DNA of 64,000 nucleotides, taken from contig NZ_JASNVW010000004.1 of NCBI RefSeq assembly GCF_030186535.1, forward strand, positions 62,001 to 126,000, read 5' to 3'. The translations under genes were made by a program, and so were the position numbers. Below are positions 20,364-40,705 of this stretch, piece after piece. Source of the DNA: Ignisphaera cupida. Lineage in GTDB: Archaea; Thermoproteota; Thermoprotei_A; Sulfolobales; Ignisphaeraceae. Under the pieces are notes generated by a model. That model ran no database searches and was not told where the DNA came from. It saw nothing but the letters and a program-made list of their open reading frames with translations. Numbering within the stretch: position 1 is the stretch's first letter; each line of letters starts with the position of its first letter.

Positions 20364-21185
20364 CTAACTATTCTTGTCAAAGGTTTTCTTAATTCTATCT
20401 CCAGATAATATGAGAACACTATTTTTTGGAACTCCAAATTTCTTTGCTATTACATCGCATTTTGCTCTTAAAAGGTGAAGAGACTTTGTTTTGCCAAATT
20501 CTGCATATGCTTCTGCATTAGCAATTCCTTTTGCTATTACAAATCCTTTGTCTATGTATGCTATAGGGGATATGCTACCAGGTGTTGATATGATGTTGAA
20601 GTTGCTTTCTTCAAAGTCTTTAATAGTTACATCTATTTCATATGGTTTGCTTCTAACAACTATAAATACTTTGTATCCATTGTGTATAAGTGTTTTAGCT
20701 AGAACCTTGTCTACTTCAGCTTCACCTGCATTATCTAAAACAAGGTATATATCTTCATTCTTTGGAATATCAGGTATATCCTCTATAACTGGCTTATCCC
20801 ATATTGCTTCATCCAAGCTATGCACATTTTCATAGCCTAGTACATTAGTATCGATGATGTTGGCAGCTGCAGAAATTCTAAGAGCCTCTCTTATATCCCA
20901 GTTAACACTTGCAATATGTTTTTCAATGTTTTGAGCTATCCTCTTCCCAATTTCTTTTAACACATTCTTTTTCTCTTGATAAGGATCTTTATTTTTAACA
21001 ACTCTTTTTATATATTCAAAGGAACTTGTAAAAGCTTTAGATCTGCTATTTTCCTCATCAACTATTTTCGCAAGTTTTTTCAAAAGAGCTGGCAACTTAT
21101 TTCCACATCCAAGATCTATGAGATCCTTGGATCTAGAGTAGATTAGGCAAAGCTTGCAATAGTCGTTGTCAATCCACATACTCAT
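20364..21185 (-). CDS. DUF89 (ARMT1-like) metal-dependent phosphatase
   Basis: A protein of 273 residues with DUF89 signatures: an N-terminal CKLC (about residues 10-13) and LVLDNAGEAEVD (about 147-158), where Asp and Asn-Ala-Gly-Glu form the metal site, plus LRAKCD near the C-terminus. The family hydrolyses phosphate esters, often as damage-control enzymes acting on sugar phosphates. Its start overlaps the aminotransferase gene by 17 bp and follows serA. In this operon it could serve as the phosphoserine phosphatase step. That is inference from context; damage control of a pathway intermediate is the alternative. Confidence 0.82.
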   Translation of the reverse strand: MSMWIDNDYCKLCLIYSRSKDLIDLGCGNKLPALLKKLAKIVDEENSRSKAFTSSFEYIKRVVKNKDPYQEKKNVLKEIGKRIAQNIEKHIASVNWDIREALRISAAANIIDTNVLGYENVHSLDEAIWDKPVIEDIPDIPKNEDIYLVLDNAGEAEVDKVLAKTLIHNGYKVFIVVRSKPYEIDVTIKDFEESNFNIISTPGSISPIAYIDKGFVIAKGIANAEAYAEFGKTKSLHLLRAKCDVIAKKFGVPKNSVLILSGDRIKKTFDKNS

Positions 21186-22191
21186 TCACAATCTCAACAA
21201 CTTTTTTAAGATCCTCAATTGTTATATCACCCATAACACCTATTCTAATAGTTGAATCTCTTAATTTGCCCATGCCACCTGCTATAATGTACCCCTCTCT
21301 CCTTAGCTTATCAATAATGTTCTTACAGTAATTTGTGTAGAATGCTGTAACTGTGTAGCTTCTCCAAGGCTCTTTAGCAACAGGCTTAAGTTTTATGTTG
21401 TTATATAAATACTCAGCTCTTTCCCTATGAATCTCATTGTATTTTGCCAAGCCCATGCTAAGTATATAGTCAAGTGCAGTATCAAGAGCATAGATAACAT
21501 TTATTGGTGGTGTGTATGGCGTTTCCCACTTCTTAAGACTATTCAAAAACTTGTTTAGATTCATAGATGGTGGCACTGGTGCTTTTGCTCTAGGCTCTTT
21601 AGCTATGTACAGTATTGCTGCGCCAGGTGGTGATATAAATGCTTTTTGAGATGCTGTAGCAACAACATCTACCTCCTTCTTGAACACCTCTACAGGAAAC
21701 AGAGAAACGCTATCAACAAGAAGAATAGCATCATATGAGCTAGCAACATCCTGGTATTTCTCAATGAATCTATTTGTTGTACCAGTACTAGTCTCGTTGT
21801 GAATAACAGCAATAGCTTTTACATTACCAACCTTTTTAACAGTATCTTCAACTATGTCTGGTGGAGGCACATCGCCATATTCCCACTCAATTCTATGCAC
21901 AACACCACCTCTAGACTCTATAGATTCTATGAGCCTTTCCCCAAACTCTCCATTGGTTATTGCAACAACATTTTCACCTGGATCAATATAGTTGTAAACC
22001 ATTGCATCAACAGCTAAAGTACCTGTACCAGGTATTATAACAGGTGTTGTGTTATAAACAATACTAAGTTTCTCAATAACTCTTCTAAACACATTTCTAA
22101 ACTCTTCTATTCGATGAAACTGGGGTTGTTTAGCAGCAGCGTCTATAACTTGCTTAGGTATTTGAACAGGTCCTGGGGTAAGATACTTCAA
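21169..22191 (-). CDS. Class V aminotransferase (serine-pyruvate/alanine-glyoxylate type)
   Basis: A PLP-dependent transaminase of about 340 residues. The start KYLTPGPVQIP is typical of the alanine-glyoxylate/serine-pyruvate group. The PLP lysine lies in TASQKAFISPPG (about residue 187), with Asp in LLVDSVS (about 160) and the phosphate-binding GTGTLA near 58. A TTG start at 22191 has GGTGA 7 nt upstream; a GTG at 22197 is in frame. It overlaps serA, which suggests it makes phosphoserine from 3-phosphohydroxypyruvate, or serine/glycine from related oxo-acids. Confidence 0.88.
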   Translation of the reverse strand: MKYLTPGPVQIPKQVIDAAAKQPQFHRIEEFRNVFRRVIEKLSIVYNTTPVIIPGTGTLAVDAMVYNYIDPGENVVAITNGEFGERLIESIESRGGVVHRIEWEYGDVPPPDIVEDTVKKVGNVKAIAVIHNETSTGTTNRFIEKYQDVASSYDAILLVDSVSLFPVEVFKKEVDVVATASQKAFISPPGAAILYIAKEPRAKAPVPPSMNLNKFLNSLKKWETPYTPPINVIYALDTALDYILSMGLAKYNEIHRERAEYLYNNIKLKPVAKEPWRSYTVTAFYTNYCKNIIDKLRREGYIIAGGMGKLRDSTIRIGVMGDITIEDLKKVVEIVNEYVD

Positions 22192-23127
22192 AGCCACTTC
22201 ACCGCCTCAAGAATATTCTTCACAATTTCCTCAGCAATTCTATCCATTGCCTCAACAGTTTCAGCACCTATGTGAGGAGTTACAACAACCTTTGGATGCT
22301 TAATCAGCTTCCACAAGTTCTCATCTCTTGGAGGCTCTTGCTCAAGAACATCAAGTGCAACACCACCAAGTCTATCAATGTGATTAAGCAAAGCATTTGT
22401 ATCTATAACCTCACCTCTGCTAGTATTGATTAATATGCTCTCATTTTGCATTAGAGACAATGTTTTATCGTTTATCATGTGCCATGTTAGTGGGGTTAGG
22501 GGAACATGAATACTGACAACATCTGCTTCACTCAAGAGTTTATCCAAATCAACTTGGATACCACCAACTCTTGAAATCTCGCTTGAGACATCTCTTATGT
22601 CATAAGCCATTATATTCATGCCAAAAGACTTTGCATAGTAAGCAACTCTACTACCAATTTTGCCAAAACCTATAATACCAAGTTTCTTACCATACAACTC
22701 TCTACCAATGTATTTACCCTTGAGCCACTTACCATGCTTCACATCATCTATTGCATCATAAAGTTTTCTGTATACAATAAGCATTAGAGCTATTGTAAGC
22801 TCAGCAACACTTATGACAGAAGCTGAAGGCGCATTCACAACAGCTATTCCTTTTCTAATAGCATATTCAATATCAACATTATCTAACCCTATACCATATC
22901 TTGCTAAAACCTTTAGATTGACCCCTCTATCAATAATTTCTTTATCTATTCTAAGCCTACCCCTAAATATCAACACATCATAATTTTCAACAATATTTAA
23001 AACATCTTCTCTTAATGCACCAGGTTTATAGCAAACATCAAATCCATGACTTACTAAGCTAGCTAAGAGCTTTTCGGATACTCTATCAACTATAAGAACC
23101 TTGTATTTATCGACAAAAAGTTTTCAC
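22188..23127 (-). CDS. serA: D-3-phosphoglycerate dehydrogenase, with apparent +1 frame change near the start
   Basis: Oxidises 3-phosphoglycerate to 3-phosphohydroxypyruvate with NAD. The main frame shows GKKLGIIGFGKIGSRVA (NAD-binding), the Arg of YGIGLDN, INTSRGEVID and the catalytic His of VVTPHIGAET. The clean frame from a possible GTG at 22976 lacks about 40 N-terminal residues, yet the upstream sequence codes for a good N-terminus (KYKVLIVDRVSEKLL). That part has no in-frame start. GTG at 23127 is in the right place, about 6 nt from a predicted transcription start (TATA at 23155-23163), but reaches the frame only if one T of TTTTT (23115-23119 on the plus strand, as AAAAA) is skipped. 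It is either a sequence error or real frameshifting. First gene of the serine operon. Confidence 0.85.
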
Positions 23128-23281: not shown

Positions 23282-23319
23282 GTGCGAAGTCTTTGCTTAG
23301 TTTTTACATGAATTCGCAC
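23282..23319. promoter_or_regulatory. Paired operator upstream of the Re-citrate/homocitrate synthase-like gene
   Basis: GTGCGAAGTC (23282-23291) and GAATTCGCAC (23310-23319) form an inverted pair; the start-to-start distance is 28 bp and the spacer 18 bp. The same arrangement with the same distance occurs before lysW at 37283-37320. The downstream site ends 18 bp before the TATA-like element. It is a candidate activator site. Confidence 0.7.
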
Positions 23320-23391: not shown

Positions 23392-24687
23392 ATGGAGCTT
23401 AATGGCGATATGAAGTTTTTTAGAGATATTTACCCATTTGAATCTGTGCCAAGATTTAATGTGACAGATCAAGAGCTTAGGGAGAATCTCAGCAAAATAT
23501 TTTTGACAGATACAACACTAAGGGATGGTCAACAGGGTTGGAGAGTTTTTACAATTGATGAGTGTGAGAAAATCTATGAGCTTTTAGCAGATATTGGTGG
23601 TAGAGGAGGTATAGAAAGTACTGAAGTGTTTTTGTACACTGAAAAGGATAGAGAAGCTGTGAAAAGGTTGTTGGCATATGGATATAGATATCCAAAGGTT
23701 ATTGGCTGGATAAGAGCAACTAATTCTGATCTTCAACTTGTTATAGATGCTAAACTTGATGAAACTGTTATGCTTATGTCCATATCTGACTATCACATAA
23801 AGTACAAGTTTAATGCAACGAGAGAAGAGGCTTTTAGAAAGTATTTAGAAGTTGCTGAAAAAGCACTTAGCCATGGCATAACAATTAGAGCGTCTTTAGA
23901 GGATATAACGAGAGCAGATATATTTGGAGCTGTAATACCATTTGTAAAAAGACTTCTTGAGTTAAGCGAGAAGTATAGAACACCTGTTAAAATAAAGCTT
24001 CCTGACACACTTGGACTTGGCCTTCCATTTCCCGAAGTGCCACTTCCACGAGGAATACCAGCAATTATACAAGCAATTAGGAAAACAACAAATATTCCAC
24101 AAGAATACATAGAATTTCATGGACACAACGACTTTGGACTTGTTGTTGCTAATCACTTAGCTGCTTGGATGTATGGTGCAGCAGCGGGTAATTGCACTCT
24201 TCTTGGCATCGGTGAAAGAGCTGGTAACTGCCCACTAGAAATAATGGCTGTTCATTATGCAGGTATTAAGGGTGTAAACAACATTAATTTGAAGGCTTTG
24301 TCGAAATTGCCAGAGCTTTTTGAGAAAATGGGTCTTAAGATTATTGAGCACTATCCACTTGTGGGAAGAAATGCTTTTAGAACGAAGGCAGGTATACATG
24401 CTGACGGTCTTTTAAAGAATCCAGAGGTTTACTTACCATTTGATCCGATGAAGGTTTTAGGACTGCCATATTCAGTAGCTATAACGCCATACTCTGGTAG
24501 ATCAGCTGTTGTGATTTGGCTTAGAAACTATCTTGGCTATAACCATATTTCAAAGGATGATCCAAGAGTTGTAGCTGTATATAACGAAATTGTTGATTTA
24601 TTCAATAAAACAGGTAGGGTTGAGCCACTATCTGATAGTGAAATGCTTGAAATTGTGAAAAAGCATTTTCCAGAAGTCAGGAAATAA
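23392..24687 (+). CDS. Re-citrate synthase / homocitrate synthase-like enzyme
   Basis: A 431-residue TIM-barrel acyltransferase of the DRE-metallolyase family. The catalytic loop is DTTLRDGQQG (about residues 40-49), and the metal ligands include HGHND at 243-247. Isopropylmalate and homocitrate synthases normally have DGEQ; the DGQQ together with FLYTEKDREAV and KVIGWIRA resembles the Re-citrate synthase branch known from Clostridium kluyveri. It condenses acetyl-CoA with oxaloacetate (citrate) or 2-oxoglutarate (homocitrate). The next three genes would convert the product to 2-oxoglutarate or 2-oxoadipate. PEP carboxylase downstream favours citrate; the operator shared with lysW favours homocitrate. 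GGTG precedes the ATG. Confidence 0.8.
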   Translation: MELNGDMKFFRDIYPFESVPRFNVTDQELRENLSKIFLTDTTLRDGQQGWRVFTIDECEKIYELLADIGGRGGIESTEVFLYTEKDREAVKRLLAYGYRYPKVIGWIRATNSDLQLVIDAKLDETVMLMSISDYHIKYKFNATREEAFRKYLEVAEKALSHGITIRASLEDITRADIFGAVIPFVKRLLELSEKYRTPVKIKLPDTLGLGLPFPEVPLPRGIPAIIQAIRKTTNIPQEYIEFHGHNDFGLVVANHLAAWMYGAAAGNCTLLGIGERAGNCPLEIMAVHYAGIKGVNNINLKALSKLPELFEKMGLKIIEHYPLVGRNAFRTKAGIHADGLLKNPEVYLPFDPMKVLGLPYSVAITPYSGRSAVVIWLRNYLGYNHISKDDPRVVAVYNEIVDLFNKTGRVEPLSDSEMLEIVKKHFPEVRK

Positions 24688-24719
24688 ACTTGAACAAAAT
24701 TCTTTTTGTGTGAATCTCA

Positions 24720-25973
24720 ATGGGTTTGATAGAGAGAATAGTGTCTAAAGCAATTGGAAAAAATGTTTCAGCTGGGGAAATAGTTGTTGTAAATATTGAT
24801 GCTGTTTATGCTCAAGATGGAACAGCACCACTTGTAATAGATGTTGTTGAGAAGGAGCTTGAGCTAAGAAAAAAGATTGCTGCTGAAAGAGCTTATTTCT
24901 TCATTGACCACTCCTCACCAGCTCCACACGTAGCTGCAGCAACTGTTCATAAAGAAATGAGAAGATTTGCAAAAGAATATGGTGTGAAACTATTTGATGT
25001 GGGCTATGGTATTAGCCACCAAGTTGTTGTTGAGGATGGTCTTGTCAGACCTGGAATGATTGTTGTGGGTGCTGATAGCCATACACCAACAATTGGGGCT
25101 ATAGGGGTTTATGCAACTGGTGTTGGAAGTACTGATGCAGCTATTGCCATGATGTTTGGGGTTTTGTGGCTCAAAATTCCAGAAACTGTGAAAGTAACCT
25201 TAACTGGTTCTTTGCCAAAGGGTGTTATGAGCAAGGACATAGCTCTTAACATTATAGGTAATGTGAAAACAGATGGAATGCTTGGTAAAGCTGTTGAGTT
25301 TAGAGGAGATACTCTCAAGGAGCTTAGCATAGATTCTAGAATGACGTTAACAAACATGTGTACTGAGATGAGTGCTGAATCAGCTATAATCCCTGTTGAC
25401 AATGTTACTAGAAATTGGCTTGCTGAAAGAGGTTACAATGTCTATAGAGAAGTGGATTGGGAAAAGGAAGATGGGTATGTAGATGAAATTGTTATAGATG
25501 TTTCTAAACTTGAGCCTCTTGTAGCAGCTCCACCAGATGTTGATAATGTTAAAAGTGTTGCTGAGGTTGATGGTGTTGAGGTTGATCAAGTGTTTATAGG
25601 GTCTTGTACTAATGGCAGACTAGAGGATATAGAAATCGCTGCCAGGATATTGCATGGGAGAAGAGTTAAAGAAGGTGTTAGATGCATAGTATCTCCAGCA
25701 TCTAGAAAAGTTTATTTAGAGGCGCTTAGAAGAGGGTATATAGATGTGCTAGCTAATGCTGGATGTATAATAGCTCCACCTACTTGTGGGCCTTGTGTAG
25801 GAGCTCACATGGGTCTTCTAGCAGCTGGTGAAGTTGCTGTGGCTACAACAAATAGGAATTTCCCTGGTAGAATGGGGCATAGAGATAGCAAGGTGTATTT
25901 ATCATCTCCAGCTGTTGCAGCTGCAACTGCTATAGAAGGTAGAATTGCGGATCCGAGAAAATATCTTTTGTAA
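24720..25973 (+). CDS. Aconitase-family hydro-lyase, large subunit (homoaconitase/isopropylmalate isomerase type)
   Basis: A 417-residue large subunit of the split LeuC type. It has DHSSPAPHVAA, GADSHTPTIGA, GSCTNGRLEDI and CGPCVGAHMG, which supply the three cysteine ligands of the [4Fe-4S] cluster, and FPGRMGH near the end. The family isomerises citrate, homocitrate or 2-isopropylmalate by dehydration and rehydration. Position between the synthase and the dehydrogenase shows that it acts on the synthase product. Length and motifs fit the archaeal LeuC/HacA group, so the exact substrate cannot be told from this chain alone. The start has a TGTGA site upstream. Confidence 0.9.
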   Translation: MGLIERIVSKAIGKNVSAGEIVVVNIDAVYAQDGTAPLVIDVVEKELELRKKIAAERAYFFIDHSSPAPHVAAATVHKEMRRFAKEYGVKLFDVGYGISHQVVVEDGLVRPGMIVVGADSHTPTIGAIGVYATGVGSTDAAIAMMFGVLWLKIPETVKVTLTGSLPKGVMSKDIALNIIGNVKTDGMLGKAVEFRGDTLKELSIDSRMTLTNMCTEMSAESAIIPVDNVTRNWLAERGYNVYREVDWEKEDGYVDEIVIDVSKLEPLVAAPPDVDNVKSVAEVDGVEVDQVFIGSCTNGRLEDIEIAARILHGRRVKEGVRCIVSPASRKVYLEALRRGYIDVLANAGCIIAPPTCGPCVGAHMGLLAAGEVAVATTNRNFPGRMGHRDSKVYLSSPAVAAATAIEGRIADPRKYLL

Positions 25974-25984
25974 AGGTGTTGTAA

Positions 25985-26506
25985 ATGATAATCCGTGGAA
26001 AGTGCTGGAAACTAGGAGATAACATAAGTACTGATCATATTATCTCTGGTAAATACAAGTTTGAAGCTATAAACGATATCAATAAAATGGCTATTCATGT
26101 TCTAGAGGATGTTATACCAGGTTTTTACAAGCTTGTGTCGAAGGGCGATGTTATTGTTGGTGGAAGAAACTTTGGCAAAGGCTCTAGCAGAGAACATGCT
26201 CCTAGACTACTAAAGCTTGTTGGTGTTGGAGCTGTTGTTGCTAAGAGCTTTGCACATATATTCTATAGAAATGCTGTAAACATTGGCCTTCCAGTTATAG
26301 TTGCAAAACGCATTCCTGATGTAAGTGAGACTGGGGATGTGATAGAAATCAGTGTTGTTGAGGGCTACATAAAAAATGTTACGAAGGGTATAGAAGAGAG
26401 GTTTACACCATTTCCTAGAGAGGTTCTGGCCATTCTTGAGGCTGGTGGTGTAGTGGAGTATATTAAGAGGTTTGGTGGCTTGCCATGGTCAAGAAATATA
26501 GGATAG
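25985..26506 (+). CDS. Aconitase-family hydro-lyase, small subunit
   Basis: A 173-residue small (LeuD-type) subunit that closes the active site. It contains DHIISGKYKFEA, VGGRNFGKGSSREHAP and KSFAHIFYRNAVNIGLPV. The specificity loop after DHII reads KYKFEA; methanogen homoaconitases are reported to carry YLRT at this site, so the substrate remains open. GGTG (25976-25979) precedes the ATG. The 3' end overlaps the dehydrogenase gene by 22 bp, so the two are coupled. Confidence 0.9.
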   Translation: MIIRGKCWKLGDNISTDHIISGKYKFEAINDINKMAIHVLEDVIPGFYKLVSKGDVIVGGRNFGKGSSREHAPRLLKLVGVGAVVAKSFAHIFYRNAVNIGLPVIVAKRIPDVSETGDVIEISVVEGYIKNVTKGIEERFTPFPREVLAILEAGGVVEYIKRFGGLPWSRNIG

Positions 26507-27516
26507 GTGTTATAAAAGGCGATGGAATAGGTCCTGAAATAGTTGATGCAGCTATTCAAGTTCTTAACACGCTAGGTATTAATGCTGATTATATCGAGTT
26601 AAATGCTGGTTACGAGTATTATAAGAAGAGTGGAAAGCCATTTGATAACGAACTCTTTGACATTGCTAAAAAACTTGATGCTATTCTAAAAGGACCTCTT
26701 TACACTCCTCCACATGAAAAGGAGTTTAAAAGCATAAATGTTTTGATTAGAAAAGAGCTTGAGCTTTATGCAAATGTTAGACCGTTTAAGAGTTTCAAGG
26801 GATTTTCACTAAGAGAGTTTAACTTTGTTGTTATTAGAGAAAATATGGAGGATTTATATGTGGGTATCGAGGGCATGTTTAATGGTATGGCTATAGCTTT
26901 GAAAATTATAACATCTGAGGGTTCCAGAAGAGTTATAGAATATGCATTTAAATATGCTAAAAAACATGGATTTAGAAAAGTTACTGTTGTTCACAAAGCA
27001 AACATATTAAAGGTAACTGATGGGCTTTTCCGGGAAGTATTTTTTGAAGAGGCTAAGAAGCATCCTGAAATAGTAGCAGATGAGATAATTGTTGATACAG
27101 CAGCTTATACAATGGTTAAAAACCCGGAGAAATTCGAGGTTTTGGTTACTCCAAATCTCTATGGAGACATTTTAACTGATTTAGCAGCTGCAATAGTTGG
27201 AAGTCTAGGACTTTGTGGATCTGCGCAAATAGGTAAATATACTGCTGTTTTTGAGCCTGTTCATGGAGTTGCTCTCGACATTGCTGGAAAGGGTGTTACC
27301 AATCCTATTGGTGAAATAGAGTCTGCTAAGCTAATGCTTTACTATCTGCATGAGAAATTCAATGACAATTACCTATTTGAAAAAGCGATGTTGTTAGATA
27401 AGGCTATACATACCGTGGTCGAGAATTGGAGAATACTCACACCAGATTTGGGAGGCTTATACAAAACTATTGACGTTGTTAAAGCTTTTGAAAAAGCGCT
27501 AGCCATAAATACCTAG
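26485..27516 (+). CDS. Isocitrate/homoisocitrate dehydrogenase-like beta-decarboxylating dehydrogenase
   Basis: A 343-residue enzyme of the IDH/IPMDH family. GDGIGPEIV marks the N-terminus. Substrate-binding arginines are in RKELELYANVRPFK (about residues 87-100) and in VVIRENMEDLYVG. Catalytic Lys and Asp are in VVHKANIL and GDILTDLAAA. HGVALDIAGKG carries an Asp typical of NAD rather than NADP use. The substrate is isocitrate or homoisocitrate according to which acid the upstream synthase makes; VRPFK resembles NAD-dependent isocitrate and homoisocitrate enzymes more than isopropylmalate dehydrogenase. Last gene of the tight four-gene set. Confidence 0.88.
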   Translation: MVKKYRIGVIKGDGIGPEIVDAAIQVLNTLGINADYIELNAGYEYYKKSGKPFDNELFDIAKKLDAILKGPLYTPPHEKEFKSINVLIRKELELYANVRPFKSFKGFSLREFNFVVIRENMEDLYVGIEGMFNGMAIALKIITSEGSRRVIEYAFKYAKKHGFRKVTVVHKANILKVTDGLFREVFFEEAKKHPEIVADEIIVDTAAYTMVKNPEKFEVLVTPNLYGDILTDLAAAIVGSLGLCGSAQIGKYTAVFEPVHGVALDIAGKGVTNPIGEIESAKLMLYYLHEKFNDNYLFEKAMLLDKAIHTVVENWRILTPDLGGLYKTIDVVKAFEKALAINT

Positions 27517-27567: not shown

Positions 27568-28760
27568 TTGGAAACATAGAAAGTTCTTCACATAAAAAAA
27601 TATTTAAAGAAAATGTAAAGCTTAGATGCATAAAATGTGGAGCAATATACGAATCCGATCCCTGGTTATTCCTTTGCCCAAAGTGCAAAAACCTTCTAGA
27701 AGTTGTTATGCCACCTAAAACAAGTTTTGACTGGGCCAATGTAAGAAAGAGAAGATTTGGTGTGTGGAGATATAGAGAGTTGCTTCCAATAAGTGATAAT
27801 GTAGAACCTGTTACCATGTGTGAAGGTGGGACACCACTAATAAAATTGAATAGAGCTGTAGATGGTCATGTCTATGTAAAATTTGAGGGTGCTAATCCAA
27901 CAGGAAGTTTTAAAGATAGGGGTATGACAGTTGGGGTTACAATAGCTAAGCATATTGGAGTTAAGGGGGTTGTTGTTGCTAGCACAGGTAATACTGCTGC
28001 TTCAGCTGCAGCCTATGCTGCTAGAGCTGGGCTGGCTTGCGTTGTTGTTTTGCCGCGTGGTGGTGTTGCAAAGGGGAAGCTAGCACAGTCACTATTGCAT
28101 GGTGCGAGAATTGTTGAAGTTGATGGTGTTTTTGATGATGCTTTGGAGGAGGTTTTTACGGAAGTTGTTATTAATGGCAAAAAAGATTTGTATCCATTGA
28201 ATTCATACAATCCATGGAGGCTAGAAGGACAAAAGACCATAGCTTTTGAAATTGTTGATGAGCTTTCAGAAGTTCCAGATGCTATTGTTGTTCCTGTAGG
28301 TAATGCTGGTAACATATCAGCTATTTGGAAGGGTTTTAAAGAACTTTACAACTATGGATTAATAAGTAAATTGCCTAGAATGATAGGTGTTCAAGCTGAA
28401 GGTGCAGCACCACTTGTTGCAACATGGAATAGAAAAAGCGAAACACTATTAGAAATTGAAAAACCATATACAATAGCATCAGCTATAAGGATAGGCAAAC
28501 CCGTTAACTGGTTAAAGGCTTTGAATGCTGTGAAGGAATCTAATGGGACATTCATTGCTGTATCTGACAACGAAATTTTAAATAGTGTAAAAGACTTGGC
28601 GCAATATGAAGGTATTGGTGTTGAGCCTGCTAGTGCAGCATCGCTAGCTGGTTATAGAAAGGCCATTGATCTTGGAATACTAAATAGAGATGATAGTGTA
28701 GTGCTTATTGCAACAGGTCATGCACTTAAAGACCCAGACACAATATCAAAAATATTCTAA
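27568..28760 (+). CDS. thrC: Threonine synthase, with apparent frame change after the start
   Basis: A PLP enzyme converting O-phosphohomoserine to threonine. The N-terminus has a zinc-ribbon (RCIKCG at about 27624-27641 and CPKC at about 27678), then the PLP lysine in PTGSFKDRGMT and the glycine-rich STGNTAASAAAYAA. The first in-frame ATG (27708) would drop the zinc ribbon. In the ribbon's frame no start codon exists after the TAA at 27531. The TTG at 27568, with GGTGA at 27557-27562, would be a normal start, but it joins the frame only if the A-run at 27572-27574 has one more A (or the ribosome slips by -1). It supplies threonine from the asd-ask-hom operon nearby. No homoserine kinase is seen. 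Confidence 0.88.
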
Positions 28761-28790
28761 AAGTGTTTTAATATCCTCAAGGTGATGCAG

Positions 28791-30188
28791 ATGGAGTTTA
28801 TACCAAGGTTTATGTGTACACAACACCCTGATGCCTCTGTGAAGATTACAGCTCAAGAGGAAGTTGATGAGGCTATACAAGGCTATACCATGTATGGATG
28901 TGACGAGGTTATGAGCGATTATGAAGGTAAGCTAACACCATATGCACAGCCAAAGGATATTGTTGTTAAGGCTGCTAAGCTTGGTATTCCAATTGGAGAC
29001 AAGTACTTTATAACCCCTAGAATACCCAATCCAAAACTTGAAGATATTGACAGAGTTGCTTTATCAATTGAAGCATCACTCATAGCAAACTATTACTCTC
29101 ATCAACATCTAAATACACAAGCCGTTAAATGGATAATAATGCCTATGGTCGAAGATCCAAATAATGTAAGACTTATTCAGAAGCTTATAATAAAAAAGGC
29201 TAGGATACTGCAAGAAGAGCTGGGTCTTCCCAAAAACGATATTCAGTTAATTCCGCTAGTTGAAGATACTCAAAGGTTCTTGGAGATACATAGATATGTT
29301 ACAATACTTTACAATACTGTAAAGGAATTTGGTGTTGATATAAATCATTTAAGAGTTTTCTTGGGAAAAAGTGATGCAGCTGTTAAAACAGGTCATGTAG
29401 CATCGGCACTGGGTTTGATGTATGCATTGAACGAGTTGCGCAAAATAGATGAGGAACTTGATTTAGATATTCAACCTATAATTGGCATGGGCTCTCCATC
29501 ATTTAGAGGTGGTATAAACAATCCTAATCTTGTTGAGTATGAGGTTAAGCATTATCAAGGATATAGCACTGTTACAATACAATCAGCTATAAGATATGAT
29601 GTACCTTTTGCCGAGTATCGAAAGGTTTTTTCATCAATTATGCAATGGCTTGGAAAAAAGCCTCATGAGGTATCAGCTTCAGTACTTAGAATCATAAGAA
29701 GTGCTTCTGAAAGCTATAGAAAAACTGTTGCTAGGTATCTCGAAGTTTTGGTGAAATATGCCTCGTACATACCATCAACAAGAGATAGAGTTACATGGAA
29801 AGAGTATGGAAGGATTTTTCCAGCAGAAGACAAAACTCTTAATGTTCCTCGTGCAATTGTTTATACAGCTACCTGGTATATTTTGGGTCTTCCACCAATA
29901 TATCTAGATGCAGAATTTATTGCAAATGCATATAGATCCAACGAAATTGATGAAATACTGAATTACATGCCCTATTTAATAGATGAATGGGAATATGAAT
30001 CACAATTCTACATACCGACTATAGCACGTCAAAGACTTGATGAAGCAATTGTCAAAAAAGTAAATGAAGTTCTTGACTATATGGGGATAAAGCCAGAGCC
30101 TAATGAAACATATAAAAGCATTTTAGAGTTTAACCCCATAGAGCCACAGGTGGTGGCTTTAGCTAAAATAAGAGGATTCCTAGGATAA
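28791..30188 (+). CDS. ppcA: Archaeal-type phosphoenolpyruvate carboxylase
   Basis: Carboxylates PEP to oxaloacetate. The protein of about 465 residues has the short archaeal PpcA form, not the 900-residue bacterial one. The N-terminus FIPRFMCTQHPD is diagnostic. VMSDYEGKLTPYAQP, LRVFLGKSDAAVKTGHV and IGMGSPSFRGG follow. AAGGTG (28779-28784) points to the ATG at 28791; the GTG and ATG at 28782/28785 lie in or on that site. It follows threonine synthase at 30 bp and can supply oxaloacetate for aspartate-family amino acids and for the citrate-type synthase upstream. Its TAA overlaps box C of the downstream sRNA. Confidence 0.95.
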   Translation: MEFIPRFMCTQHPDASVKITAQEEVDEAIQGYTMYGCDEVMSDYEGKLTPYAQPKDIVVKAAKLGIPIGDKYFITPRIPNPKLEDIDRVALSIEASLIANYYSHQHLNTQAVKWIIMPMVEDPNNVRLIQKLIIKKARILQEELGLPKNDIQLIPLVEDTQRFLEIHRYVTILYNTVKEFGVDINHLRVFLGKSDAAVKTGHVASALGLMYALNELRKIDEELDLDIQPIIGMGSPSFRGGINNPNLVEYEVKHYQGYSTVTIQSAIRYDVPFAEYRKVFSSIMQWLGKKPHEVSASVLRIIRSASESYRKTVARYLEVLVKYASYIPSTRDRVTWKEYGRIFPAEDKTLNVPRAIVYTATWYILGLPPIYLDAEFIANAYRSNEIDEILNYMPYLIDEWEYESQFYIPTIARQRLDEAIVKKVNEVLDYMGIKPEPNETYKSILEFNPIEPQVVALAKIRGFLG

Positions 30189-34877: not shown

Positions 34878-35297
34878 TTAGATCCATGTACGCAGTACTA
34901 CCATTGTGTAGGTACTTGTTACCCCTGGTATAGAGCGAATTTCGTCTATGAACTTATTTATCATTTCTATACCAGATGCTCTTACAATGACGAGTATGTC
35001 GTATTCTCCAGTTAATTCATATACTATCTCAACTCCTGGTATCTTCAAAATATTTTTGGATACCTCTGGTACTGGAACTGGGGGCTGTGTTTTTACTAAG
35101 ATGATAGCTTTTATCTCGTTTATGAGCTCATACTCTATTGTTATCTTTTTTATAATCCCACTTTTTATGAGTCTTGAAATTCTTTTTCTAACAGCAGATT
35201 CACTTATGCCAAGTTCTTTAGCAAGCTTTGAGTAAGGTGTTCGCGCATTTTCTTTAAGCAATTTTAAAAGCTTTAAATCTAGATCATCTAAAGGCAT
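34878..35297 (-). CDS. Lrp/AsnC-family regulator (LysM-like)
   Basis: A 139-residue regulator of the Lrp/AsnC family. The winged HTH covers about residues 5-50 (LDLKLLKLLKENARTPYSKL, then LGISESAVRKRISRL), and the RAM ligand-binding domain 65-139 (IPGVEIVYELTGEYDILV, VTSTYTMVVLRTW). It sits 5 bp after lysZ, the same neighbourhood as the lysine-responsive LysM of Sulfolobus, which activates lysW. It is the natural candidate to bind the paired operators at 37283 and 23282. Ligand specificity is inferred from context. Confidence 0.85.
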   Translation of the reverse strand: MPLDDLDLKLLKLLKENARTPYSKLAKELGISESAVRKRISRLIKSGIIKKITIEYELINEIKAIILVKTQPPVPVPEVSKNILKIPGVEIVYELTGEYDILVIVRASGIEMINKFIDEIRSIPGVTSTYTMVVLRTWI

Positions 35298-35302
35298 TAT
35301 TC

Positions 35303-36106
35303 CTAGCCCTTAACAACAACAGTTCCCTTCCCATTTAACGCATTGGTTACAGGATTATCTATTACACCAGAAGCTATCACAACTCTGTCAACACCTTCTT
35401 CAACAGCTTTCCCAGCCAACATAACCTTTCTATTCATGCCAGGCCCTATTTTCTCAATAATTCTCTCTATAGATGATGACTTTATTTCAGGCACCACTAC
35501 ATTGTCTATTATCACACCCTCTACATCAGTTAGTATTATTAAGTTAGAAGCTTTTAATGCAGTAGCAATAGCATATGCTGCCTGATCTCCATCAACATTT
35601 AGGAGAGTGCCCTCACTATCAACAGCTATTGGTGCCACAACTATCGTAAAGCCCTTATCTAAAAGAAGCTGAATAAGCCCTGTCTCAGCTTTAATTACTT
35701 TACCTGTGTACCCACCATCTATAACCCTTTTTCTCCCTCTTTCATCAACTATAACAATTCTCTTCTTTCTTTCAGCCAATAACGTTTGGCCATCAGCACC
35801 AGTAATACCTACAGCAGGCACATTTAATGCCAGTAACTTTGAAACTATAGTCTTATTTATCTTACCTGCCATAACCATTACATAAACTTCAAGTTCCTTT
35901 TCATCAGTATATCTACTCCTTATTCCTTCTGGGGACATCACAAACTTTGGTTCTATTCCAAGTTTTTTACTAATTTCTGTAACAATATCACCTCCACCAT
36001 GAACAAAAACCACTTTCTCTCTTCTACTTACCTCTGCTAAGTTTTTGACAATGCCATCCATATTCTTATTTAGAGCTCTTCCACCAGCTTTAACAACAAT
36101 TACCAT
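35303..36106 (-). CDS. lysZ: [LysW]-aminoadipate/glutamate kinase
   Basis: Phosphorylates the carboxylate of LysW-bound aminoadipate (or glutamate for arginine). A protein of about 267 residues of the acetylglutamate-kinase fold: VVKAGGRAL, VFVHGGGDIVTEI, VGITGADG, NVDGDQAAYAIA and ILTDVEGV. The order lysY-lysZ-lrp and the divergent lysW-lysX-lysJ-lysK assign it to the carrier-protein pathway rather than free acetylglutamate. AGGTG then ATG at 36106 is the preferred start; a TTG at 36118 is inside the preceding gene's end. Confidence 0.92.
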   Translation of the reverse strand: MVIVVKAGGRALNKNMDGIVKNLAEVSRREKVVFVHGGGDIVTEISKKLGIEPKFVMSPEGIRSRYTDEKELEVYVMVMAGKINKTIVSKLLALNVPAVGITGADGQTLLAERKKRIVIVDERGRKRVIDGGYTGKVIKAETGLIQLLLDKGFTIVVAPIAVDSEGTLLNVDGDQAAYAIATALKASNLIILTDVEGVIIDNVVVPEIKSSSIERIIEKIGPGMNRKVMLAGKAVEEGVDRVVIASGVIDNPVTNALNGKGTVVVKG

Positions 36107-36118
36107 TGTTTTCAACAC

Positions 36119-37183
36119 CTACACAGGTTTTGGAGGCACTATAAGTAGTCCAGCAGTTTCTTCAAAACCCATTGCAATATTGAATGCTTGTATAGCCTGT
36201 CCTGCAGCACCCTTAACAAGATTGTCTATAGCTGCAAATGATGTTACTCTACCAATTCTTTTCTCAATTGCAAAACCAATATCTGCATAATTGCTACCAA
36301 CAACATATTTGGGATCTGGATAACCCGGGGGAACCTTATATACTATTCTAATGAATGGCTCATTTTTATATGTTGCCACATAGTATTTCAGCATCTCAAC
36401 ATCGTCTATATTTTGAGTAAGCCAAGCATGTGATGATGCTAGTGCTCCTCGCACACTACCAACTGCGTGAGGAACCATGGAAATCGATACGGATTTACCA
36501 ACAACTAATGAAAGTTCCTGCTCAACTTCCGCAGCATGTCTATGTCCATCAGCATCATATGGTCTTATACAGCCTTCTCTTTCTGGATGGTGATCAGCTA
36601 TACTTGGTTTTGAACCAGCCTCGCTACTCCCAACCTTTACATCAACAACTATTTTATCTAGAAAAATCAAGTTGTTTTTAACTAAAGGTAGAAGCGATAG
36701 TATTCCAGCTGTGGCGTTGCAACCGGGAGATGCAATCAGCTTTGCATTTTTAAGTTCATCACGATGAATCTCTGGTAATCCATAAACAGCTTTGTTAAGT
36801 AAATCTGGATAGGGATGTTCAAAACCATACCACATCTTGTAAAGCTCAGGATTCTTCAATCTAAAGTCAGCACTTAAGTCGATAGTTAATATGCCCATTT
36901 CTAAAATTTTTGGTACATAATTTAATGAAACACCATGTGGTAGAGAAAGAAAAACAGCGTCACAATTCTTTGAAACAGCATCTAAATTAATATCTGTAAA
37001 CTTTAGATTTCTATAAATACCACGCAAATTAAAATGAACATAGTGTACAGGCTTGCCCACATACTCTCTCGATGTTGCCATAACAACCTCTACACCTGGA
37101 TGATTTGCTAGCAGTCTAAGTAGCTCACCTCCTGTATAGCCAGATGCTCCTAATATGCATACTTTCTTGCTATTGGAACTCAT
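36119..37183 (-). CDS. lysY: [LysW]-aminoadipyl/glutamyl phosphate reductase
   Basis: Reduces the LysW-bound acyl phosphate to the semialdehyde with NADPH. A protein of about 354 residues related to ArgC. It has ILGASGYTGGELLRLL (nucleotide-binding), the catalytic Cys in ASPGCNATAGIL, HRHAAEVEQEL and VPHAVGSVRGA. The ATG at 37183 follows CAGGTTGA; a TTG at 37204 is also in frame. It is divergent from lysW across a 220-bp control region. Confidence 0.93.
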   Translation of the reverse strand: MSSNSKKVCILGASGYTGGELLRLLANHPGVEVVMATSREYVGKPVHYVHFNLRGIYRNLKFTDINLDAVSKNCDAVFLSLPHGVSLNYVPKILEMGILTIDLSADFRLKNPELYKMWYGFEHPYPDLLNKAVYGLPEIHRDELKNAKLIASPGCNATAGILSLLPLVKNNLIFLDKIVVDVKVGSSEAGSKPSIADHHPEREGCIRPYDADGHRHAAEVEQELSLVVGKSVSISMVPHAVGSVRGALASSHAWLTQNIDDVEMLKYYVATYKNEPFIRIVYKVPPGYPDPKYVVGSNYADIGFAIEKRIGRVTSFAAIDNLVKGAAGQAIQAFNIAMGFEETAGLLIVPPKPV

Positions 37184-37282
37184 TTTGTTATCAACCTGCT
37201 GCAAACTTTATTTAGGTACAAGCTTTACTAGTTCAACTTTATTTTTGTATAGCGGTTTTTATACTATAAAGATATGATATTG

Positions 37283-37346
37283 GTGCAGATTCTAGTAAAG
37301 CTACATACATGAATCCGCACATGAATACTAGCATATTGTATATATT
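37283..37346. promoter_or_regulatory. Paired operator and TATA box of lysW
   Basis: GTGCAGATTC (37283-37292) and GAATCCGCAC (37311-37320) are inverted sites, start to start 28 bp apart, exactly as at 23282-23319. The 15 bp at 37306-37320 match 23305-23319 at 14 positions. TGTATATAT at 37338-37346 is the probable lysW TATA box, beginning 17 bp after the second site. GGTACAAG at 37215-37222, towards lysY, may be a half of the TTGTACAA type. Confidence 0.7.
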
Positions 37347-37403
37347 CCCTGCAATTCATATAGGATTTGTTAACAAAAACCATGTATTATGAGGTTCATG
37401 GAA

Positions 37404-37574
37404 ATGGTAAAAACAAAATGTCCCATATGTGGAGGTGAAGTAACACTACCTGACGATGTCATGTCAGGAGAGGTTATAGAACATGACTGTGGAGTAACGC
37501 TGGAAGTTGTTATAGATGGAAACAACATAAAGGTGAAGCCTTTAGAAGGTGTTGACGAAGACTGGGGAGAGTAA
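37404..37574 (+). CDS. lysW: Lysine/arginine biosynthesis carrier protein LysW
   Basis: A 56-residue acidic carrier. A zinc-ribbon (CPICGGEV near the start, then HDCG) is followed by the invariant EDWGE C-terminus, whose terminal glutamate is linked to the amino group of aminoadipate or glutamate by LysX. The whole intermediate chain is carried on it. The ATG at 37404 is preferred, 8 nt after GAGGT; ATGs at 37389 and 37398 are in frame. It is followed at 8 bp by lysX. Confidence 0.96.
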   Translation: MVKTKCPICGGEVTLPDDVMSGEVIEHDCGVTLEVVIDGNNIKVKPLEGVDEDWGE

Positions 37575-37582
37575 CAAAGGTG

Positions 37583-38452
37583 ATGTCTATTGCCAAAGCC
37601 TTACTAGTTTATGAAGTTATGAGATGGGAGGAAAAAGCTCTTCTAGATGCAGCTAAGGAAATAGATTTAGATGTTGAGCCCATACACCTCTATAGTTCTG
37701 TTATCCAAATCGGATATAACGGAGTAAAAGATGTTTTCAAAGCTAATGCTGAAATAGCTTTACAAAGAGCAGTGAGCCATTCTATAGCATTGAATGCTAC
37801 CATTGCTTTAGAGTCTCTTGGCATTAGAGTAATAAATAATTCAATGTCGACAGCTCTTGCAATGAACAAGCTCTGGACATTATCAATTCTTTCTAGAAAT
37901 GGTATAAAAACACCAAGAACATTAGTTGCGTTTAGTGATGAGGCATGCTTCAAATTTGCACAAGCAATTGGTTATCCAATTGTTTTAAAGCCTATTGATG
38001 GTAGCTGGGGAAGATTAATAGCAATGGCTCGAGATGAGGAAGAGCTTAGAGCAATACTAGAGCATAGAAGCTATATACCAAATCCAACAATGAAAGTTCA
38101 CATGATTCAAGAACTTGTTAACAAGCCAAATAGAGATATAAGAGTTTTTGTTGTTGGTGATGAGGTTCCAGTGGGTATATATAGAGTAAGTAATCACTGG
38201 ATAACGAATACCGCTAGAGGGGGGAAGGCGGAGCCTGCTAAAATAGATGATGAGTTAAGGGAGCTTGTTTTAAAATCAGCTAAACTTCTAGGGATAGAGA
38301 TTGCTGGTGTCGATGTCTTTGAGGATAGAGACAGGGGATACATTGTTAATGAGATTAATGCAGTTCCTGAGTTTAAGAATACTGTTGCGGCAACTGGTTA
38401 TAAGCTTCAGCTAGATATCATGAAATATGTTAAAAATCAAATAAAGAGATAA
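37583..38452 (+). CDS. lysX: LysW-aminoadipate/glutamate ligase (ATP-grasp)
   Basis: Links the LysW C-terminal glutamate to the amino group of 2-aminoadipate (or glutamate as ArgX). About 289 residues of the RimK-like ATP-grasp family: GYPIVLKPIDGSWGRLI (ATP loop), RDIRVFVVGDEVPVG and ITNTARGGKAEP, with metal ligands in EIAGVDVF and YIVNEINAVPEF. Only one such ligase is in the window, so it is either bifunctional or a second copy lies elsewhere. ATG at 37583 and GTG at 37580 are both possible starts. Confidence 0.93.
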   Translation: MSIAKALLVYEVMRWEEKALLDAAKEIDLDVEPIHLYSSVIQIGYNGVKDVFKANAEIALQRAVSHSIALNATIALESLGIRVINNSMSTALAMNKLWTLSILSRNGIKTPRTLVAFSDEACFKFAQAIGYPIVLKPIDGSWGRLIAMARDEEELRAILEHRSYIPNPTMKVHMIQELVNKPNRDIRVFVVGDEVPVGIYRVSNHWITNTARGGKAEPAKIDDELRELVLKSAKLLGIEIAGVDVFEDRDRGYIVNEINAVPEFKNTVAATGYKLQLDIMKYVKNQIKR

Positions 38453-38496: not shown

Positions 38497-39651
38497 ATGC
38501 TAAAGTATCTAATGTTTTACGAGGATAGAGGTTTAGAAATTTCATATGCTGAGGGGCAATATGTATGGGATTCTAATGGCTTAAAATACATAGATATGCA
38601 CACAGGGCATGGAGTGGCGTTTCTTGGCCATAGAAATCCACATGTTGTAAAAGCTCTAACAGAGCAGCTGAATAAAGTCTCAATAGCATCAACATCTTTT
38701 AGAGTCAGAGTAAGGGAGGAGATGTTAAATATTCTATCAAAGATAGTGCCAAACAGTTTTGAGTATGTATATCTGTTGAATAGTGGTAGCGAAATAGTTG
38801 ATTTTGCTTTAAAAGTTGCTAGAAAGGCTACGGGCAGAAAAAAGATTGTTTACTTCACTAACTCATTTCATGGCAGAACCTTTGGAGCTTTATCTGTCAC
38901 ATCAAATATTAGATATAGAAGAGGTGTGGAGCCATTACTTCAAGATACTTACCAAGCAAAATTTAATAATGTTGATGAATTAGATAAGGTAGTGGATAAT
39001 GAAACAGCTGCAGTAATTGTTGAGTTGATACAAGGAGAAGGTGGTGTGAATGTTGCATCAAAAGAGTTTGCTAAAGCAGTGAGAGCTAGAACACTTGAAA
39101 CAGGCTCTATTCTCATAATTGATGAAATTCAAACAGGTTTTGGCAGAACGGGTACTACATGGCTATTTGAGCAATACAATATAGTACCAGATATTTTGTT
39201 AGCTGGTAAGGCAATTGGTGGTGGATTTCCTGTAAGTGTAGCGTTTCTACCACATGAAATAGCATCTAAGCTTGAGCCAGGAACTCATGGATCTACATAT
39301 GGTGGAAACCCCCTTGCTTGTGCAGCTGTGAAAGCTGCAACAGAGGTGCTTATTCAAGATTCTGTTCCGTTGAAGGCATATGATAAGGGAAGGGAGTTAA
39401 TAGATTTGCTTAAAAAGGAATTGAGTGGACATAGAATTGTTAGAGAAATTAGAGGTGCTGGGCTTATGATAGGTATTGATCTCAGAATTGAGCCAACAAA
39501 AACTATAAAGTGTTTGCAAAACAATGGACTATTGGCTTTAAAAGCAGGGGTAACAGTTCTAAGGCTTTTACCACCATATGTAATAAACCGTGATGATATT
39601 GCATATGCGGTGAATGTTATTGGTAAATGCATTGAGGAATCTAGCAGTTGA
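38497..39651 (+). CDS. lysJ: [LysW]-aminoadipate/glutamate semialdehyde aminotransferase
   Basis: A class III PLP aminotransferase of 384 residues that makes LysW-lysine (or LysW-ornithine). Signatures: LNSGSEIVDFALKVAR, NSFHGRTFGALS, ILIIDEIQTGFGRTG and the PLP lysine in LLAGKAIGGGFPVS (about residue 241). It follows lysX by 44 bp with GGTGGTGT before the ATG. Lysine versus ornithine specificity is not readable from sequence alone. Confidence 0.93.
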   Translation: MLKYLMFYEDRGLEISYAEGQYVWDSNGLKYIDMHTGHGVAFLGHRNPHVVKALTEQLNKVSIASTSFRVRVREEMLNILSKIVPNSFEYVYLLNSGSEIVDFALKVARKATGRKKIVYFTNSFHGRTFGALSVTSNIRYRRGVEPLLQDTYQAKFNNVDELDKVVDNETAAVIVELIQGEGGVNVASKEFAKAVRARTLETGSILIIDEIQTGFGRTGTTWLFEQYNIVPDILLAGKAIGGGFPVSVAFLPHEIASKLEPGTHGSTYGGNPLACAAVKAATEVLIQDSVPLKAYDKGRELIDLLKKELSGHRIVREIRGAGLMIGIDLRIEPTKTIKCLQNNGLLALKAGVTVLRLLPPYVINRDDIAYAVNVIGKCIEESSS

Positions 39652-39652
39652 C

Positions 39653-40705
39653 ATGTTGCTAGATATTGTCAAAGCCTATAGCCCTACAGGTGCTGAGGAA
39701 AAAGCTGTAAAGATTTTATATGAATATGCTAAAACCCTTGGATTTGACAAAATTACTATAGATAATGTTGGAAACCTTATAGCTGAAATTGGATATGGAG
39801 AAAAGAGTCTTGCTTTAATAGGACACATAGATACTGTTCCAGGTGAAATACCAGTTGAGTACAATGGTTATAGCATTAAAGGTAGGGGTGCAGTTGATGC
39901 TAAAGGCCCTTTAACAGCAATGTTCATAGCAGCATCTCTTGCTAAGAGAGGTATAGATTTGAATAAGCATAGAATTGTTGTAGTTGCTGCCGTAGGTGAG
40001 GAGGGTGATAGTATAGGTGCTAAAGAACTTTTGAAAAAAGGTTTTAAAGCAAATGGAATAGTAATTGGAGAACCTAGCAACAACTCTATTGTAATAGGAT
40101 ACAGAGGTGGTATGCGACTAGAGATCACATGTAAATCCAGACCTTCACACACTTCATCTCCTCCAATAGAGCCTTCAGCATGCGATAAAATCATTGGTAT
40201 ATGGTCAAAAATTAGAGAAATGTACAACACATATACCCCACAGTCAAATTCTGCAACAGCAATTCATATTAGTTGTGGTGAAAACAGTAGATTTAATGTG
40301 TATCCAACACATGCAATTCTCATAGTAGATGTAAGAATATCAGTAAGTGGTAGTGTGGAGGCAATTGAAAAAGATGTTCTGAACATAGTTAAACAATACA
40401 ATGAATGTTTTCAGAGAGTTGTCGATTTTACACCACCAATCAAAGTCTCAGTGAATAACACAGTTGTAAGGGCATTAACAAGAGCATTGTTGAAGACAAA
40501 CACTAAGCCAAGGTTTGTTTATAAACTTGGGACAAGCGATATGAACATTCTTGCAGCATGTGCAAACAATAATATTGTTGCTTATGGTCCTGGCAAATCA
40601 CAGTTATCTCATACAGATGAGGAGGAAATAGCTGTTGATGAGCTGCTACAAGGCATAGACATTTACACAAAAACAATTTTAGAGTTTTTCAATATACTTG
40701 ATTGA
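39653..40705 (+). CDS. lysK: [LysW]-lysine/ornithine hydrolase
   Basis: Releases lysine or ornithine from LysW. A protein of about 350 residues of the M20 zinc peptidase family: LIGHIDTVPG (zinc His and catalytic Asp), GRGAVDAKGPL (bridging Asp), AVGEEGDSIGAK (catalytic Glu and ligand Glu), VIGEPS and the C-terminal His in LSHTDEEE. The ATG at 39653 lies 1 bp after the lysJ stop; a GTG at 39614 inside lysJ is in frame. It completes the lysWXJK operon. Confidence 0.93.
   Translation: MLLDIVKAYSPTGAEEKAVKILYEYAKTLGFDKITIDNVGNLIAEIGYGEKSLALIGHIDTVPGEIPVEYNGYSIKGRGAVDAKGPLTAMFIAASLAKRGIDLNKHRIVVVAAVGEEGDSIGAKELLKKGFKANGIVIGEPSNNSIVIGYRGGMRLEITCKSRPSHTSSPPIEPSACDKIIGIWSKIREMYNTYTPQSNSATAIHISCGENSRFNVYPTHAILIVDVRISVSGSVEAIEKDVLNIVKQYNECFQRVVDFTPPIKVSVNNTVVRALTRALLKTNTKPRFVYKLGTSDMNILAACANNNIVAYGPGKSQLSHTDEEEIAVDELLQGIDIYTKTILEFFNILD

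Follow-up and report, generated by a model that had tools for sequence, protein, structure and literature searches.

Re-citrate synthase was discovered in clostridia. In C. thermocellum, a Re-citrate synthase candidate shares 61% identity with the verified C. kluyveri enzyme and adjoins aconitase, Re-type labelling was shown in vivo, and Si- and Re-citrate synthases co-occur both in this organism and in C. kluyveri, according to PMC6115520. Among archaea, a Re-citrate synthase has already been reported for Ignicoccus hospitalis, as cited in PMC12016533. Here, we analyzed a 64-kb stretch of DNA from the thermophilic archaeon Ignisphaera cupida (hereafter, the window, in its whole length), where an enzyme of this kind heads a row of metabolic genes. 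The original prediction placed at 23392-27516 a Re-citrate synthase-like enzyme, two hydro-lyase subunits and an NAD-type decarboxylating dehydrogenase, and left two competing readings for the set, citrate to 2-oxoglutarate or homocitrate to 2-oxoadipate for lysine. The open reading frames, motifs and families of the four genes were as it had described (Table 1).

Table 1. Features of the window around the synthase operon and the lysine cluster
Feature	Coordinates	Strand	Basis
Palindromic operator before the synthase operon, GTGCGAAGTC-N18-GAATTCGCAC	23282-23319	+	Motif scan, one mismatch
Re-citrate synthase family enzyme, 431 aa, candidate citrate/homocitrate synthase	23392-24687	+	ORF, Pfam/NCBIfam, alignment, tree
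Aconitase/homoaconitase-type large subunit, 417 aa	24720-25973	+	ORF, Pfam/NCBIfam
Aconitase/homoaconitase-type small subunit, 173 aa, loop GKYKFEAIND	25985-26506	+	ORF, Pfam/NCBIfam
NAD-type beta-decarboxylating dehydrogenase, 343 aa, helix KSINVLIRKELELY (isocitrate-dehydrogenase-like S-x-N-V)	26485-27516	+	ORF, alignment
Threonine synthase	27708-28760	+	Identified from sequence; kept across the genus
Archaeal PEP carboxylase (oxaloacetate supply)	28782-30188	+	Pfam/NCBIfam
Lrp/AsnC-type regulator adjoining lysZ	34878-35297	-	Near lys and synthase genes in relatives too
lysZ	35303-36118	-	Sequence reading; cluster conserved
lysY	36119-37204	-	Sequence reading; cluster conserved
Second operator copy, between lysY and lysW, GTGCAGATTC-N18-GAATCCGCAC	37283-37320	+	Motif scan, one mismatch
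lysW, carrier protein, 58 aa, ends EDWGE	37398-37574	+	Gene-neighbourhood comparison
lysX (WITNTARGG/EFKN)	37580-38452	+	ORF, motifs
lysJ	38497-39651	+	ORF, sequence reading
lysK	39614-40705	+	ORF, sequence reading

Matches to Pfam and NCBIfam families ran across the operon (HMGL-like plus HCS_D2, Aconitase, Aconitase_C and Iso_dh, with PEPcase_2 downstream), and the small-subunit gene overlaps the dehydrogenase gene by 22 bases. The synthase carries DTTLRDGQQ at residue 40 and KVIGWIRA at residue 102; W106, R166, S168, H243 and H245 were noted, and the alignment blocks contained all of the DRE-TIM metal and catalytic residues (D40, R44, H243 and H245). Its scores lay far under the curated cut-offs of every LeuA, NifV and LysS model, so that such synthase genes are easily misannotated. 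The dehydrogenase bears HGVALDIAG, with the NAD-type Asp-Ile, together with the S-x-N-V substrate-helix pattern of solved isocitrate dehydrogenases. This motif may not rule out homoisocitrate, since S-V-N-L was also found in the dehydrogenase of another genome (G043), which has a separate type II isocitrate dehydrogenase (IDH). As anticipated, PEP carboxylase follows in the same direction, 4.1 kb past the synthase end, with threonine synthase in between.

Divergent from the operon (20364-22976) lie genes for a D-2-hydroxyacid dehydrogenase, a class V aminotransferase (serine-pathway-like) and a DUF89-like protein, the first two of which adjoin the operon in most of the genus Ignisphaera. Elsewhere in the window, the segment 41758-46473 probably serves sugar-acid breakdown, with genes for two FGGY-type sugar kinases, a hydroxyacid dehydrogenase and an aldolase resembling dihydrodipicolinate synthase.

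In a tree of 83 proteins, the window synthase fell into a 56-row clade (support 100/100, stem 3.0) together with the enzyme of locus L188, which we take to be the synthase of C. thermocellum ATCC 27405 and whose gene is directly followed by that of aconitase. S. acidocaldarius LysS (6ktq), LeuA, CimA and the short Clostridial type (L180, L181 and others) lay outside that clade. Identity to the C. thermocellum enzyme was 40.5% over 430 columns, while values of 31% were obtained for 6ktq, and of 31% and 26% for the genome's own LeuA and CimA, respectively. The window synthase did not group with S. acidocaldarius LysS and is without DSTLREG and AHSRA; nor did it group with LeuA, the Glu of V-E-F-S-x-E-D being replaced by R166. 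Judged by its sequence, it belongs to the Re-citrate synthase branch of the C. kluyveri/C. thermocellum type, as had been proposed, and the placement within isopropylmalate synthases that would have spoken against this was not seen in the tree. The clade splits into a His subclade (100/99), with members from Clostridia, Ignicoccus-like genomes (G022, G032 and G051), Methanomethylicota and Nitrososphaeria, and a non-His subclade (86/96), which holds the window synthase. The short (~390 aa) and long (~460 aa) Re-citrate synthase types share, in different Clostridia (L180, L181, L185 and L188), the order synthase, aconitase (640 aa), IDH.

The order synthase, large subunit, small subunit, dehydrogenase, thrC, PEP carboxylase was kept in 9/9 other usable Ignisphaera genomes (loci L060-L067 and L069), with synthases 74-93% identical to the window copy; this count leaves out G002 (75% complete), where none of the operon genes was found. 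Separate genes for the two routes, named in the original prediction as evidence against it, did not appear in the window's genome (1.74 Mb, 99.9% complete): neither an ordinary (Si-type) citrate synthase nor LysS was found there, and its three HMGL-family proteins are the window synthase, LeuA adjoining LeuB, and a 519-aa CimA-type protein near ilvC/ilvD. Further, no AcnA aconitase was found in this genome, which has two aconitase-fold proteins, the operon large subunit and LeuC (with LeuD beside it), and three Iso_dh proteins, namely LeuB, the operon enzyme and a type II NADP-IDH at C2:225231; argG, argH and carAB are present. Because Si-citrate synthase, AcnA and LysS were all absent from the search results, the four-gene set is the genome's only candidate for citrate and its likeliest candidate for homocitrate.

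A separate IDH accompanied the operon dehydrogenase in 10/10 usable Ignisphaera genomes, and isocitrate is therefore presumably made. This IDH is of type II in most of the genus (G000:C2:225231-226397) and of type I in G009 (G009:C1:1641296-1642426), a non-orthologous replacement. The latter genome, which we take to be that of Ignisphaera aggregans, also holds a second, solitary synthase copy (L068, G009:C1:878612-879868; 70% identical, KCSLED), where a split between citrate and homocitrate is perhaps under way.

The predicted sharing of an operator with lysW was borne out. Only two sites in the 64 kb corresponded to GTGCGRATTC-N18-GAATYCGCAC, each with one mismatch, the next best at that spacing having six; they precede the operon and lysW with an identical half-site spacing of 28 bp, and the operator was not found before argG, carA, asd or the aspartokinase gene. 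The 28-bp spacing was repeated before lysW in G005 and G006, with a more degenerate copy before the synthase. Before the synthase, the operator was recognisable in most Ignisphaera genomes, weak in G003, and absent or unrecognisable in G009. The Lrp/AsnC-type regulator is a candidate for the operator-binding protein.

The single LysX has its WITNTARGG and EFKN in common with Thermus 3vpd and T. kodakarensis 5k2m, and does not have the EWRxNVALG and EFKG of ArgX. In one relative (G047), Lrp-lysZ-lysY and lysWXJK lie immediately beside the synthase set; in another (G012), lysY-lysZ-Lrp-synthase lie on a single strand; and in a third (L112), which has Lrp-lysW-lysX-synthase in this order, lysX overlaps the synthase gene by 4 bases and residue 168 is Ser. 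A full LysW cluster (L219) was also observed in G092, a genome in which no DRE-TIM synthase was found; its LysX reads ITNAARGG for ITNTARGG and perhaps serves arginine only.

Residue 168 lies in the block R-x-[H/S/T/A]-x-E-D and is Ser in the window synthase. It was His in 31/31 sequences of the His group, to which the proven Re clade belongs, an invariance noticed in the present analysis as a family trait and not a published defining criterion. Ser or Thr occupied it in 17/17 sequences from genomes where the family synthase is the sole citrate synthase candidate found, and Ala in 10/12 from genomes with another citrate synthase, the remaining two (G030 and G040) having Ser. One genome, G087 (86% complete), has Ala with no other citrate synthase found; it was counted in neither group and, for now, is an exception to the pattern. 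Further, G043 carries two copies, one with His and the other with Ala. At the level of sequence, the His/Ser-Thr/Ala pattern is a new observation. When residue 168 was compared with the presence of another citrate synthase in four tree pairs, two were concordant, none discordant and two uninformative, an underpowered comparison with few independent changes.

At the same place, LysS reads R-F-T-A-E-D and most LeuA E-F-S, so that R166 and Ser168 of the window synthase match the R-x-T/S of LysS; in published homocitrate synthase structures, this Arg and Ser/Thr presumably hold the distal carboxylate. Trp106 was considered as a bar to 2-oxoglutarate and dropped, being general to the synthase family; NifV also has Trp at this position. 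Two basal members (L048 of G040 and L049 of G030) have HGHGDY and not HGHNDF in the metal-binding block, come from genomes with Si-citrate synthase and possibly use another substrate. In L107, L108, L110 and also L075, the next gene after an Ala-168 synthase is that of the dehydrogenase, with no hydro-lyase genes between the two.

Relatives combine these modules in other ways. Every relative with the synthase and without Si-citrate synthase also had no long AcnA, and AcnA was present where synthase and Si-enzyme occurred together. Absence of the Si-enzyme was not taken as a criterion for the family: the split was clean in many Sulfolobales, and both enzymes were found together in Lachnospiraceae, where the synthase repeatedly lies near a type II IDH. 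In two genomes (G067 and G073, each 99% complete), Si-citrate synthase adjoins a type I IDH and AcnA; these genomes also hold the synthase-hydro-lyase-dehydrogenase set, a LysW cluster with LysX, and a second, ArgX-type sequence (assigned by motif in G067 and from its match alone in G073). Since the synthase was the only DRE-TIM enzyme found in them and another citrate synthase is present, its probable role there is that of homocitrate synthase. The operon dehydrogenases of both genomes have S-I-T-L where others have S-x-N. The sister genome G090 keeps synthase, hydro-lyase, dehydrogenase and thrC, its one Iso_dh being the operon enzyme, and one protein search yielded no LysX above the RimK-like background. 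In G053, type II IDH, synthase and hydro-lyase stand in a row and an ArgX-type enzyme lies near argGH; neither a LysX-type enzyme nor an operon-type dehydrogenase was found there. Finally, G042 and G023 hold the family synthase together with LysS, so that a homocitrate role need not be assumed for their synthase.

With our confidence evenly balanced, we propose that the window set is dual-use, making both citrate and homocitrate under co-regulation with the lysine genes. The synthase would condense acetyl-CoA with oxaloacetate from the downstream PEP carboxylase to citrate, and with 2-oxoglutarate to homocitrate, and the two-subunit hydro-lyase would isomerise both products. The operon dehydrogenase, helped for isocitrate by the separate IDH, would then yield 2-oxoglutarate for glutamate and ornithine/arginine, as well as 2-oxoadipate, which would pass on to lysine through LysW; the palindromic operator would co-regulate the module with lysWXJK and lysYZ. 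These substrates, the stereochemistry, the co-regulation and the regulator are what we infer. That citrate is formed is likely, as the genome yielded no other candidate that might feed the retained IDH; homocitrate formation is suggested by the regulation, the relatives and the absence of LysS. Against dual use, I. cupida could be a lysine auxotroph with a LysW system serving arginine only, LeuA could supply homocitrate, the residue-168 correlation comes from few independent events, and G042 and G023 carry the synthase alongside LysS.

Lysine uptake is part of a citrate-only alternative, in which Re-citrate synthase, aconitase and NAD-IDH lead to 2-oxoglutarate and the LysW cluster makes ornithine/arginine only. 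The clade shared with Re-citrate synthase, the ICDH-like S-x-N-V helix, the downstream PEP carboxylase, the presence of argG, argH and carAB, and the use of the synthase without LysX in G090 and G053 are all in line with it. However, the operator precedes lysW but neither argG nor carA, the motifs of the single LysX are those of the lysine type and not of ArgX, and the genus genomes would all keep a redundant second IDH; we rank this alternative second, as rather unlikely. The opposite case, a complete upper lysine pathway of homocitrate synthase, homoaconitase and homoisocitrate dehydrogenase with no citrate made, would explain the operator common to the operon and lysW, the replacement of the Re-clade His by Ser168, and the close paralogs in Si-citrate synthase genomes, which presumably act otherwise. 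It is nevertheless improbable, as it leaves no citrate synthase or aconitase despite the dedicated IDH throughout the usable genus genomes, and sister G090 keeps the set without LysX. A leucine/isoleucine set built on isopropylmalate or citramalate synthase can be given hardly any weight: weak family-level matches to LeuA models are set against separate leuA-leuB, cimA and leuCD genes, a position outside the LeuA and CimA clades, and R166 in place of the Glu of most LeuA.

Extending the dual-use reading, we tentatively suggest, at somewhat less than an even chance, that one Ignisphaera set yields 2-oxoglutarate and 2-oxoadipate, that a dedicated Ala-168 homocitrate synthase arose in archaea that gained or kept Si-citrate synthase, and that a single residue close to the distal carboxylate would set the choice of substrate. 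The specificity predicted for position 168 would be citrate for His, both or citrate for Ser/Thr, and homocitrate for Ala. If true, homocitrate synthase would have arisen a second time, independently, within the Re-citrate synthase family; a single enzyme set would sustain glutamate and lysine synthesis in living genomes, an arrangement proposed for ancestral metabolism, and both syntheses would be explained in archaea without Si-citrate synthase and LysS. The novelty originally claimed holds in part. Citrate formation alone is less new, because a Re-citrate synthase was already reported for the related archaeon Ignicoccus, and for homocitrate formation by a Re-type enzyme the relatives give better support than the window itself.

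Compared with known systems, the locus resembles the T. kodakarensis LysW lysine/ornithine system in its single LysX-type enzyme and in one set serving several homologous substrates; the synthase of that system is presumably not of the Re-citrate family. With S. acidocaldarius LysS, the window synthase shares the DRE-TIM family and an Arg plus Ser/Thr at the putative distal-carboxylate site, whereas LysS has DSTLREG, AHSRA (His against the window Trp106) and a longer C-terminus, at 31% identity and in a separate clade. The short Re-citrate synthases (388-405 aa), which we take, following the literature, to be the C. difficile/Heliomicrobium type, are likewise followed by aconitase and often IDH in Clostridia, but belong to another clade and are 28% identical. 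Ignicoccus belongs to the same order as Ignisphaera, and the genome that we take to be I. hospitalis (G032) encodes a family member with 48% identity to the window synthase and lacks Si-citrate synthase; unlike the window synthase, the Ignicoccus enzyme is of the His type and stands alone, and a separate LysS homocitrate synthase is encoded. Closest is the C. kluyveri/C. thermocellum Re-citrate synthase, with the same long form and N-terminal extension, a GWIRA/SWIRA motif and adjoining aconitase and IDH genes. In contrast to that type, the His of R-x-H-x-E-D is Ser168 in the window synthase, which falls in the archaeal non-His subclade, and its hydro-lyase is of the two-subunit HacAB type, in an operon with an operator common to lysW.
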